Shown one piece after another: positions 26,217 to 31,595 of a stretch of DNA of 64,000 nt. Source of the stretch: Bifidobacterium tissieri. Lineage in GTDB: Bacteria; Actinomycetota; Actinomycetes; Actinomycetales; Bifidobacteriaceae. Positions within the stretch are counted from its first letter, which is position 1. Every line of letters begins with the position of its first letter. A program made the position numbers and the translations under genes. The notes beneath the pieces were generated by a model. That model made no database searches. It saw nothing but the letters and a program-made list of their open reading frames with translations, and was not told where the DNA came from. Location of the stretch: contig NZ_MWWV01000015.1 of NCBI RefSeq assembly GCF_002259645.1, forward strand, positions 1-64,000, written 5' to 3'.

Positions 26217-27221
26217 CTACTTGCCGACCTTCACCACGGCCTTCGACACCCCAGTGAACTTCCCCTCGAGGAAGTCCTGCACCTGCTCCAGCTCGATCTC
26301 ATGGCTGATCAGCGCGCCGATGTTCATCTTGCCGGTGGAGACGAGGGCGATGGCGTCCTTGAAGGTGAGCGGGTTGATGAAGGAGCCCTGGATGGTGAGC
26401 TGCTTCTTGTAGATGTCGTAGGTGTTCATTTCGAAGTGCGCCTCCTGCGGGCCCACGCCGAACATGAGGACCTGTGCGCCCTTCTTGGTGGCGGCCACGG
26501 CCTGCGCCTGGGTGGCGGGCAGTCCTACGGCTTCGATGACCACGTCGTAGGTGTCGGCGGGGATCTGCTCGCGGGTGGTGTTGTAGATGTTGGTGACGCC
26601 GAAGAGGTCCTTGTTGCGCTGGAGCTTCTCGTCGAAGATGCCGGCGAGGTCCACCTGGTGCACACCGTAGGCCTGGAGTAGCTGCACGAAGATCTGGCCC
26701 ATGAAGCCGTCGCCGATCACGAGCGCCTTCTGGTAGGGGCGCAGGTCGAGCAGGTCAAGGCCGTGCACGCCGCAGGAGACGGGCTCGATGGCGGCGGCGT
26801 CGCGCAGACTCACGGTGTCGGGCAGCTTGTAGACCACGGTGGCGGGGGCGGTGAACTGTTCGGCGAGGCCACCGTCGCGGGTCACGCCGACGGCGCTCAG
26901 ATGATCGCACAGTTCGGGGCGCTGGGTGAGGCAGAACTCGCACTGTCCGCAGTAGATGTTCGGGTCGACGGCCACACGGTCGCCGGGCTTGACGTTGGTG
27001 ACCTCGTCGCCGATGGCGGCCACGACGCCGGAGTTCTCATGGCCGAGCACGATCGGCGGCACGGCGGCTGCGGAGCCGGGGCGGCCTGCGTACAGGTCGT
27101 GGTCGGTGCCGCATACGCCGGCGTATGCGGTGTTGATGAGCACTTCGTTCGGGGCGATTTCGGGGGTGGGCAGATCCTGGATTTCGAACTGCTTGACGCC
27201 GGTGAGAACAAGAGCCTTCAT
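26217..27221 (-). CDS. Zinc-dependent alcohol/polyol dehydrogenase (MDR family)
   Basis: 334 residues. Catalytic-zinc ligands Cys37 (AGVCGTDHD) and the GHE motif near 60, and four structural-zinc cysteines in YCGQCEFCLTQRPELC (about 88-103). The nucleotide-binding GDGFMGQIF lies near 165; GDGFMG replaces the usual GxGxxG with one changed position. This is the sorbitol/threonine dehydrogenase-like branch. Start MKALVLTGVKQFE is set by GGAAGG about 9 bases upstream on the minus strand. It heads an operon with the permease and VOC genes, separated from them by a heavily structured gap. Confidence 0.9.
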   Translation of the reverse strand: MKALVLTGVKQFEIQDLPTPEIAPNEVLINTAYAGVCGTDHDLYAGRPGSAAAVPPIVLGHENSGVVAAIGDEVTNVKPGDRVAVDPNIYCGQCEFCLTQRPELCDHLSAVGVTRDGGLAEQFTAPATVVYKLPDTVSLRDAAAIEPVSCGVHGLDLLDLRPYQKALVIGDGFMGQIFVQLLQAYGVHQVDLAGIFDEKLQRNKDLFGVTNIYNTTREQIPADTYDVVIEAVGLPATQAQAVAATKKGAQVLMFGVGPQEAHFEMNTYDIYKKQLTIQGSFINPLTFKDAIALVSTGKMNIGALISHEIELEQVQDFLEGKFTGVSKAVVKVGK

Positions 27222-27896
27222 GATTGTTGCCTTCCATCTTCTTCCCGCTGTCATACCTGCGGGAGGTGCGCGGCTTCCATGCCGCGAATGCTGATTGTCG
27301 ATTGTTGTTGTGAGGGGATGTCCGTTCATGGCTGATGCTGCATTGTGTCGCCATGGGGATACAAGAGATGTTTCACGTGAAACAGAAGGGTGTATGCAGT
27401 TTGACGCCGATTGTCCGATCGGTCGTCGTGTTGTGCCGACTACAGATGCGTCTGACGGCGGACGAGCCGCTCGCGGCGGTGGCGGAGCTGTACCGCCGTG
27501 CACGCTGCATCGTCGAAGAACCTCATCATGGCGGATCACCTCCTCGTTGTTGCCTCGTTGCTGTGATGGCACTAACAGTACCTTATGTAAAAAACTTTTG
27601 CAAATTATATTTCTATAACTGACGACACGCCTCGAATTACAACGATTATGAACATTGTGATTGCAGTCCAAGTGACGATATTTCGCGACCCGCGCATGCC
27701 CGCGTACTGCCGATGTGACGTAATCAACATCCGTGAAAACCCGCGTAGAGCTGAATGTGCACCCTTCCGTAATCATCCGAATCACGCTACCGTGGAAAGG
27801 CTGCCCGTGTCCGTCGCGTGAACCGTCGTGACCGTCGGCATCATGAATCATCCATGACATATAGACACGTAGATAAAGGGAGGCAACAGGGGAGAT
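27222..27896. other. 675-bp divergent intergenic region carrying parS
   Basis: Lies between the dehydrogenase (minus) and the ABC exporter (plus). Short frames (for example 27295-27618) lack ribosome sites and recognisable products. The parS site at 27369-27384 is the clearest element. The part from 27590 to 27660 is AT-rich. Promoters for both flanking genes must lie here but no confident -35/-10 pair was found. Confidence 0.6.
27369..27384. promoter_or_regulatory. parS: parS, ParB binding and loading site
   Basis: TGTTTCACGTGAAACA is a perfect 16-bp palindrome identical to the consensus parS bound by chromosomal ParB in most bacteria. It loads ParB for chromosome segregation and SMC recruitment. 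Because actinobacterial parS sites cluster around oriC, it suggests that this window is in the origin-proximal part of the chromosome. No parA, parB or dnaA gene is in the window. Confidence 0.88.
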
Positions 27897-30800
27897 ATGT
27901 TCGACAAACGTCTGTTTTCCATAGTGCCGGGGGTCGGACGACTCGTCGCCGGCAAGGCGGCGCTGCTGTGGGTCACGCTGATGGCCAACGTCGCGTTCGC
28001 CGTCACGCTCGTCCTATTCCTGTTCGATCTGCTCACCGCGGCCGATCCACACCGTCCCGTGCCGGCCAGCTGTCAGATTGATCCGAACGGCGGCTGTGCG
28101 CCCGCGCCCGGACTCGCCGATCTTCATCTTGGCATGACGCCGAACGAAGCCGTCCCATACCTCATCGCGTTCGTGATCATCGCCGCGATCCGCTATGCGG
28201 CCACGCGCGGTGCCACGCATCTGGGCTTCCTCGCCGCCGAAAAGGTCAAGCTCGCGCTGCGTCAGAAGATGATCCGCAAGATGCACGCCCTCGGACCCGC
28301 GTACTCATCCACCGTCCGCACCTCCAACGTGGTGCAGCTCGCCGGCGAAGGCGTCGAACAGGTGCAAACCTTTTTCGACCTGTTCCTGCCCCAGCTGTTC
28401 TACAGCGTGCTCGCCCCCATCACCCTGTTCGTCGTGCTGCTGCCCGTGAACCTGCCGGCCGCCGTCACACTGCTCGTCTGCGCGCCGCTCATCGTGTTCA
28501 TCGTCGGACTCGTCGCCATGAGCGCCGCCCGTGTCTTCAAGAAATACTGGGGCAAGTACACCGATCTCGGTGCCACGTTCCTCGACGACCTGCAGGGCCT
28601 TGAAACCCTCAAGAACTTCGACGCCGACGAACGCGCCCACCACACCATGAACACGCGCGCCGAGGAATTCCGCGTCATGACCATGAACGTGCTGCAGATC
28701 CAGTTGCGCTCGCTGTCCGTCATGGACCTGGTGGCGTACGGTGGCGCGGCCGCCGGCATCGGCGTGGCCCTGTGGCAGTACGCCACGTACGGCGTGGACC
28801 TGGGCGCCGTGCTGCTCATCGTGCTGCTGTCCGCCGACTTCTTCATCCCGCTGCGTCAGCTCGGCTCCTACTTCCATGTGGCCATGAACGGCATGACCTC
28901 CAGCCGCAAGATCCTCGACCTGCTCGACACCCCCGAACCTGATCACGGCAACGGCGTCATGCCTGTCGACGCCGTGACCGTGCGATTCGACGGCGTGGGA
29001 TTCCGCTACGCGGACGACACCGAAGCCCTGCGCGATGTGTCGTTCACCGCCCGTCCCGGCGAACTGACCGCGATCGTGGGCGTGAGCGGCTCCGGCAAAT
29101 CCACCGCCGCCGGTCTGATCGCCGGACGGCTCACCGGCTACACCGGCTCCATCGCCCTGCGCGGGGTCGCTCCCGGCAAGGACGGCAAGGACGACGGCAC
29201 GTCCGTCGAACTGCGCGACGCCTCCCTGGATTCACTGCTTGCCGGCGTGACCATCGTCTCCGCCACCAGCCACCTGTTCCACGACACCCTACGGAACAAC
29301 CTGCTCATGGCCGCCCCCGATGCCACCGACGACGACCTGTGGCATGCGCTCGAACTCGCCCGCGTGGCCGACTTCGTCCGCGAACAGCCGGACGGGCTCG
29401 ACATGCGCATCGATGAAGGCGCGTCCAACCTCTCCGGCGGACAGAAGCAGCGCATCGCGCTGGCCCGCGGCCTACTGCACGATTCGGCCATCACCGTGTT
29501 CGACGAGGCCACCAGCAACGTGGACGCCGAAAGCGAGCGCCTGATCCTCGACGCGATCCACGATCTCGCCGCATCCGGCAAGACCGTGATCATGATCACC
29601 CACCGCATGGCCAACGCCGTGGACGCCAACCACGTGGTCGTGTTCGACCACGGCACGGTCGTCGAAACCGGTACGCACGCCGAACTCATGGCGGCAGCCG
29701 GCGAATACGAACGACTGTTCCGCACGCAAAGCGCGGTGGAAAACATTGGGGATCGCGGTGCCGCCGCCGTACGCGACGCGAACCTCACGCATGCTGATGG
29801 CAACGCCACCGACGTCGACGATGCCGCATCCGTTGATTCCACCCAGTCCTCGTCGCCGTCCACGAACGGCACGACGATGTCCACAATGGGCCTGATCCGC
29901 CGACTGCTCGGTCAGGCCCGACCGCTCGCCGGATTCATGACCGCAGCCGTCGTTTGCGGCGTGATCGGCCATCTGGCGGCGACCCTGCTGCCCACGTTCG
30001 GTGTGATCGGCCTGTTCGCGCTTGCCGGCCACCCCGTCTGGGGCATCGGCGTCGTCCCTGCCACGATCGGACTGGCGGTGTGCGCGGTGGTCCGTGGCGC
30101 CATGCGCTACGTGGAACAGTTCATGAACCACAACGTGGCATTCCGCCTGCTCGCCCTGTTCCGCGACAAGGCGTTCGGCGCGCTGCGACGTCTTGCCCCG
30201 GCCAAACTCGCCGGACATGGCAAGGGCGATCTGGTGGCCCTGATCACCACCGACGTGGAACTGCTGGAGATCTTCTTCGCCCACACCATCTCCCCGGTGG
30301 TCATCGCCGTCGTCACCTCGATCGTGTTCGCCGCGCTGCTGGCCGGACTGAACCCGTGGTTCGCCCTGCTGCTCATCGTCGCCCACCTGACGGTAGGCGT
30401 GGCATTGCCCCGACTGTTCGCCGCGCGCGTGACGCCGCTTGGCGCGCAGATTCGCAAGACCTCGGCCGAACTTGACGACTATGTGCTCGACGGCATGCGC
30501 GGCATGGACGAGACCATCCGCTTCAACCAGGGCGAGCACCGCGTGGCTTCGATCACCGAACGCACCATGGCGTTGTGGAACCGTCGCGGACGACTCAGCC
30601 GCGCCAACGGCGTATTCGCCGGCCTCGGTGGTGTGCTGGTCGAACTGTTCACCGTGATCGCCGCGGCCATCGCGTTGTCGCTCGCGTTCGCCGACTCGCT
30701 CAGCGTGCCGAACTCGATCGTCGCCATCACGCTGATCTCCAGCTCGTTCGGCCCCACGCTCGCACTGAGCGCCCTGCCGGCCAGCCTGACCCAGACGTTC

Positions 30801-31595
30801 GCCTCGGCACGTCGCCTGTTCGCCCTCATGGACGAGGCTCCGGCCGTCGAGGAACGCGGTACCGCAACCCCGGACTACACCGGCATGACGCTCGACCATG
30901 TCACCTTCGCCTACCCCGGAACGGATACGACGATCCTGACCGACGCCTCGCTGAACGTGCCGCGCACGGGCGTGCTCGGCGTGCAGGGGCGCTCCGGTGC
31001 CGGCAAGTCCACCATGCTCAAGCTGCTCATGCGGTACTGGGACCCGAACACCGGCACGGTACGCATGTCCGGCACCGATCTGCGTGACGTGGACGCGCAT
31101 CATCGCCGTCGCGTACAGACCATGCTCGCCCAGGAGACCTACCTGTTCGACGGCACGATCCGCGAGAACCTGCTGCTGGCCGATCCGAACGCCAGCGAAG
31201 AGGCATTGACCGACGCCTGCCGTCGCGCAAGCGTGACCGACCTCATCGACTCGCTGCCGGACGGACTCGACACCGCCGTGGGCGAGCTGGGCGACCGTCT
31301 CTCCGAAGGCGAGCGCCAGCGCATCGGACTGGCCCGCGTGTTCCTGCGCCGCGCCGATCTGGTGCTGTTCGACGAGCCGACGAGCCGCCTCGACGCACTC
31401 AACGAGGCCGTGATCCTACGGTCCATCGACGCGCTTGCCACCACGGACGGACCGGCCGTGATGCTCGTCTCCCACCGCGAATCCGCCATGCGCATCGCCG
31501 ATCGCGTGCTGCAGGTCGGCCCGGCCGCAACAGAAACGTCGGCAACGGAAACGGCGACAACGGCGGAGAAGACGGGCCGGCCGATCCGCGAGTAG
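27897..31595 (+). CDS. Fused double ABC exporter (TMD-NBD-TMD-NBD), CydDC-like
   Basis: 1232 residues, two ABC half-transporters in one chain. First half: six-helix exporter domain (about 15-330), Walker A GVSGSGKST (about 395), signature NLSGGQKQRIALARG, Walker B ITVFDEATS. A Ser/Thr/Asp-rich linker (about 620-660) joins the second half: helices to about 960, Walker A GRSGAGKST (about 1032), a degenerate signature LSEGERQRIGLARV and Walker B LVLFDEPTS. The layout matches fused CydD-CydC proteins that export thiols for cytochrome bd assembly; no cydA or cydB is in the window, so a general lipid, drug or peptide exporter is possible. GGGGAG precedes the ATG. The asymmetric second signature suggests one weak ATPase site. 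Confidence 0.85.
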   Translation: MFDKRLFSIVPGVGRLVAGKAALLWVTLMANVAFAVTLVLFLFDLLTAADPHRPVPASCQIDPNGGCAPAPGLADLHLGMTPNEAVPYLIAFVIIAAIRYAATRGATHLGFLAAEKVKLALRQKMIRKMHALGPAYSSTVRTSNVVQLAGEGVEQVQTFFDLFLPQLFYSVLAPITLFVVLLPVNLPAAVTLLVCAPLIVFIVGLVAMSAARVFKKYWGKYTDLGATFLDDLQGLETLKNFDADERAHHTMNTRAEEFRVMTMNVLQIQLRSLSVMDLVAYGGAAAGIGVALWQYATYGVDLGAVLLIVLLSADFFIPLRQLGSYFHVAMNGMTSSRKILDLLDTPEPDHGNGVMPVDAVTVRFDGVGFRYADDTEALRDVSFTARPGELTAIVGVSGSGKSTAAGLIAGRLTGYTGSIALRGVAPGKDGKDDGTSVELRDASLDSLLAGVTIVSATSHLFHDTLRNNLLMAAPDATDDDLWHALELARVADFVREQPDGLDMRIDEGASNLSGGQKQRIALARGLLHDSAITVFDEATSNVDAESERLILDAIHDLAASGKTVIMITHRMANAVDANHVVVFDHGTVVETGTHAELMAAAGEYERLFRTQSAVENIGDRGAAAVRDANLTHADGNATDVDDAASVDSTQSSSPSTNGTTMSTMGLIRRLLGQARPLAGFMTAAVVCGVIGHLAATLLPTFGVIGLFALAGHPVWGIGVVPATIGLAVCAVVRGAMRYVEQFMNHNVAFRLLALFRDKAFGALRRLAPAKLAGHGKGDLVALITTDVELLEIFFAHTISPVVIAVVTSIVFAALLAGLNPWFALLLIVAHLTVGVALPRLFAARVTPLGAQIRKTSAELDDYVLDGMRGMDETIRFNQGEHRVASITERTMALWNRRGRLSRANGVFAGLGGVLVELFTVIAAAIALSLAFADSLSVPNSIVAITLISSSFGPTLALSALPASLTQTFASARRLFALMDEAPAVEERGTATPDYTGMTLDHVTFAYPGTDTTILTDASLNVPRTGVLGVQGRSGAGKSTMLKLLMRYWDPNTGTVRMSGTDLRDVDAHHRRRVQTMLAQETYLFDGTIRENLLLADPNASEEALTDACRRASVTDLIDSLPDGLDTAVGELGDRLSEGERQRIGLARVFLRRADLVLFDEPTSRLDALNEAVILRSIDALATTDGPAVMLVSHRESAMRIADRVLQVGPAATETSATETATTAEKTGRPIRE

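Follow-up and report, generated by a model that had tools for sequence, protein, structure and literature searches.

A consensus parS site between dehydrogenase and exporter genes of a Bifidobacterium, placed by synteny far from the origin of replication

The window analyzed here is a stretch of 64,000 nucleotides, bases 1-64000 of contig C7 (80,356 bp), from a draft genome of 2.87 Mb in 38 contigs. The genome is that of a Bifidobacterium with B. callimiconis and B. vansinderenii as close relatives. Four features make up the locus:

26217-27221, minus strand: gene of the zinc-dependent alcohol dehydrogenase family, 334 aa (Pfam ADH_N and ADH_zinc_N)
27369-27384, no strand: parS, the exact 16-bp palindrome TGTTTCACGTGAAACA, with the conserved core at 27370-27383
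27440-27529, minus strand: conserved small ORF of 29 codons with a strong AGGAGGTGA-like ribosome-binding site, upstream of the dehydrogenase gene
27897-31595, plus strand: ABC exporter gene, 1232 aa (Pfam ABC_membrane twice and ABC_tran twice)

The dehydrogenase and exporter genes are divergent, and their start codons (27221, minus strand, and 27897, plus strand) are 147 and 512 bp from parS, respectively, which agrees with the intergenic location given in a preliminary description of this DNA. Orthologs of the dehydrogenase are present at 92-94% identity in six of eight other genomes of the genus. The exporter, with two membrane and two ATPase domains, is most similar among Bifidobacterium records to proteins of B. 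callimiconis (84%) and B. vansinderenii (83%). The small ORF lies between these two genes, and parS sits between the small ORF and the dehydrogenase gene. The small ORF is equally long in seven species and pairwise differences by codon position (64, 91, and 251) are a coding signature; the product may be a small protein or a leader peptide. No promoter or terminator overlapping parS was detected between 27180 and 27940. Elsewhere in the window, the sole Rfam match is a Transposase-2 RNA (RF03015; 3138-3202, plus strand, 48.6 bits), which points to a possible transposon close to the left contig end.

The palindrome is the parS consensus used in PMC10197239, and the exact 16-mer is present at 27369-27384 as had been described. 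The site thus matches exactly the sequence of chromosomal parS of the Spo0J/ParB type. It is the sole match to TGTTTCACGTGAAACA in the window, even with up to three mismatches allowed. Under a first-order Markov model of window composition, the number of exact copies expected by chance is 1e-5 for the window and 4.5e-4 for the genome. Nine exact copies were found genome-wide, nine more sites differ by one or two changes, and the reversed 16-mer, used as a control, has no genome match at up to two mismatches. We therefore rejected a chance match.

The genome also encodes the proteins of a chromosomal partition system, on the contig that carries dnaA:

C6:5209-6666: ParB, with ParB_N and HTH_ParB domains (Pfam)
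C6:6656-7654: ParA-type ATPase, beside parB

The parAB locus is near dnaA. A cognate ParB with an HTH domain is encoded beside parA, and the best PDB match of this ParB is Spo0J (6sdk). An smc gene scores above the curated cutoff. With ParA, ParB, and Smc encoded, the machinery required by a parS site is present. One of the exact copies of parS, at C6:7631-7646, lies across the 5' end of parA and is read there in frame as NVSRETA. Within 10 kb of dnaA there is one exact site, and degenerate sites near dnaA are at C6:3664, 5122, and 8852. Because nine exact copies are present against fewer than 0.001 expected and all three proteins are encoded, the palindrome at 27369-27384 is very likely a real ParB-binding site, and its identity as a chromosomal parS is well supported by its sequence, its copies, and these genes. 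We also considered, and rejected, an origin of the site in an integrated plasmid or island that carries separate partition genes. The sole match in the window to the genome's ParA and ParB covers 29 residues at E = 0.41, though a divergent partition system may escape this comparison.

The preliminary description inferred from the site that the window belongs to the origin domain. That placement was not supported. The dnaA gene is on contig C6 and the site is on C7, where it is alone at up to two mismatches. Because the genome is a draft, the position of C7 relies on synteny: in B. primatium, dnaA and the orthologous dehydrogenase gene are on one contig, 463 kb apart, which puts the site ~463 kb to the left of dnaA (positions in genome G005 agree with this B. 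primatium record, and the two were treated as one). In the complete chromosome of B. catenulatum subsp. kashiwanohense (2,337,234 bp), the exporter ortholog is ~376-380 kb to the left of the dnaA end. Both references place the locus at ~16% of the chromosome, or approximately a third of one arm. When the origin domain is defined as ±10%, that is, 20% of the chromosome around oriC (PMC7022226), the site falls outside of it by synteny with both species. GC skew gave no information on placement. The site is thus predicted to be distal both to oriC and to other parS sites. On the 244-kb contig of B. callimiconis with the orthologous parS, no second core site is present at up to one mismatch.

The core of the site is conserved among the closest relatives. 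In a scan of 66 loci, the only ones with the parS core, apart from that of the window, were those of B. callimiconis and B. vansinderenii, where it is upstream of the dehydrogenase gene (L034 and L035 and genomes G001 and G008 give identical sites and were counted as two species, not four). In these two species one outer base is changed and the core is kept. Across the spacer that separates the small ORF from the dehydrogenase gene, all 14 core columns are identical in the three species versus 79 of 212 other columns, and just two windows of 14 columns are fully invariant, one coinciding with the core and the other offset from it by a single base. These sequences are most simply read as showing selection on the core, and its retention in close relatives suggests a function at this distal place. 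Since the three species are close, the comparison spans a short time. Four other relatives (G002, G004, G005, and G006), whose dehydrogenase is 92-94% identical, have no parS match at up to three mismatches. This absence from the same place indicates that the site is dispensable in the genus. We consider the parS at 27369-27384 to be lineage-specific, apparently selected, and origin-distal.

Lineage specificity is also what would be expected if the site were a relic of an old rearrangement or a chance gain, still bound by ParB and tolerated without function where it is. The four relatives lacking the site have a spacer of 115-139 bp, compared with 213-220 bp in the three species that carry it, and Caulobacter is reported to tolerate extra copies of parS within ~500 kb around ori (PMC5815017). 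However, without selection the site would be expected to decay as much as the sequence around it, and the invariance of the core relative to the rest of the spacer makes a tolerated, functionless site unlikely.

An inversion or other rearrangement could instead have brought C7 close to oriC, in which case the window would truly be in the origin domain. The genome is in 38 contigs, and B. catenulatum and the clade differ by rearrangements of gene order, both of which leave room for such an event. But collinearity with a single B. primatium contig was observed for each of C7 (segment from -439 to -515 kb), C38 (-235 to -14 kb), and C6, which holds dnaA. Parts of the interval are matched by C1, which carries the next B. 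primatium segment from -440 kb, adjoining that of C7, and by C37, which holds most matches to the segment from -260 to -240 kb with some internal rearrangement. In the pieces compared, the B. callimiconis contig with the orthologous site is likewise collinear with the B. primatium segment between -580 and -401 kb. A move of the window to the origin is therefore very unlikely. It is also very unlikely that the palindrome is a local operator for a transcription factor (e.g., of the LacI type) controlling the dehydrogenase or exporter gene, with its likeness to parS a coincidence: its position between divergent genes, with the nearer start codon 147 bp away, would suit an operator, but the identical 16-mer occurs eight more times in the genome, including in parA, and the site is not conserved together with the dehydrogenase in the four relatives, which is unexpected for a regulatory site.

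We consider it likely that 27369-27384 is a genuine chromosomal parS located ~0.46 Mb from the origin on the left arm and acting as a satellite loading site for ParB and Smc. We counted in its favor the exact consensus with nine genome copies, the parA, parB, and smc genes, the parS at the 5' end of parA, the invariance of the core, the collinearity of contigs with B. primatium, and the natural distal sites described in L. reuteri (PMC10197239) and B. subtilis (PMC8357415); against it we counted that the site is single copy while origin-proximal parS sites are reported to tend to bind ParB better (PMC12322038), that it is absent in four relatives, and that the three species are close. ParB is described as binding parS, closing as a clamp, and sliding off (~15 kb; PMC9242446). 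We infer from the protein family that ParB from the parAB locus adjoining dnaA would bind the site, close as a CTP clamp, and slide several kilobases both ways over the dehydrogenase and exporter genes. Given how ParB is known to behave, the spreading over neighboring genes proposed in the preliminary description is plausible, and it may affect those genes. ParB at the site is also predicted to recruit Smc. The satellite site would then add to the sites near oriC by initiating a separate, probably one-sided, loop of DNA on the left arm.

The distribution of parS across Bifidobacteriaceae provides a context for this position. The core was found in 29 of 31 one-contig genomes, and the 14-bp core of their oriC-proximal clusters is identical to that of this site. 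Positions relative to dnaA were compared in 27 genomes (the 29 without G050 and G054; G023 was counted with four of its five sites). Most have several cores within ~15 kb of dnaA, whereas the site described here is ~463 kb away. Seven of the 27 have a site more than 100 kb from dnaA and one has a site more than 400 kb away, near 440 kb; distances that span the contig end are approximate, as genome lengths were taken to the nearest 100 kb. Genome G086, with a site ~100 kb away, is borderline and was left outside the seven. An exact core is absent from genomes G098 and G099, and the only one in G108 is ~275 kb from dnaA.

B. primatium has parS cores at approximately -318 and -176 kb. In the genome analyzed here, sites on the right arm (contigs C34, C36, and C23) are placed only roughly, by synteny with B. 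catenulatum, and the C23 sites at 157357 and 273658 are beyond the synteny anchors and were left unplaced. We compared the 11 core sites of this genome with 13 of 19 B. callimiconis pieces, and six, including 27369-27384, align exactly over the core. The site at C36:74626 aligns partly, across a gap; at C6:47644, there is a B. callimiconis core in the matching area but the alignment does not span the site; C36:73389 aligns to sequence that is not parS; C23:273658 has flanking matches only; and the sequence corresponding to C23:157357 is outside the pieces compared. A one-mismatch site with the core GTTTCACGTGGAAC is present in collinear stretches of this genome (C23:123020-123035) and B. callimiconis (C28:223215), and this stretch of C23 carries an ORF of 3146 aa.

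In sequence, the clade looks more dispersed in parS than most of the family, with right-arm positions rough. We tentatively suggest, as a possibility held at somewhat less than even confidence, that the callimiconis/vansinderenii clade, including this genome, has a dispersed centromere. The cluster at dnaA would be reduced to one exact and several degenerate sites, and conserved sites would extend along the arms to ~0.46 Mb or more.

Among the part of the literature matches covered by our search, no title or abstract dealt with mapping of parS in Bifidobacterium; one of 12 gut genomes scanned for parS in PMC10197239 is a Bifidobacterium. Origin-distal parS is already known from Bacillus subtilis and Limosilactobacillus reuteri, and what is less usual is the breadth of the spread in this clade. 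B. subtilis shares the 16-bp type of site and has natural copies far from oriC, with origin-distal sites listed at +17, +42, +91, and -27 degrees (PMC12322038); the site described here would be at ~58 degrees if the estimate of 463 kb in 2.87 Mb holds. The B. subtilis site at -304 kb forms an arc in contact maps and the asymmetric pattern is ascribed to Smc collisions (PMC8357415). L. reuteri is a gut bacterium that has distal parS without sporulation. Its three spaced sites at -180, -17, and +206 kb each have a distinct Hi-C pattern, and the distal two show hairpins of their own (PMC10197239). But L. reuteri is a Firmicute with shorter distances and Hi-C data for its sites, and B. subtilis sporulates, the use proposed for its scattering, whereas members of the genus Bifidobacterium are not known to sporulate and the site described here is known from sequence. 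By analogy with both species, satellite loading on the left arm is expected at this site.

In Pseudomonas and Caulobacter, parS too far out is described as harmful or disfavored (PMC5098823; PMC5815017), and moves of 650 kb in Vibrio cholerae and 400 kb in Caulobacter are reported to be harmless (PMC5098823). Scattered parS has been viewed as counterproductive, as Smc complexes loaded far apart collide, with scattering limited to few lineages and possibly serving sporulation in B. subtilis (PMC8357415). If the centromere is dispersed in the callimiconis/vansinderenii clade, partition and Smc loading would occur over a third of the chromosome, and sporulation would not be available as an explanation. 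Small-genome gut actinobacteria with conserved distal parS, beside relatives with compact clusters, would offer a natural comparison for the function of distal sites.
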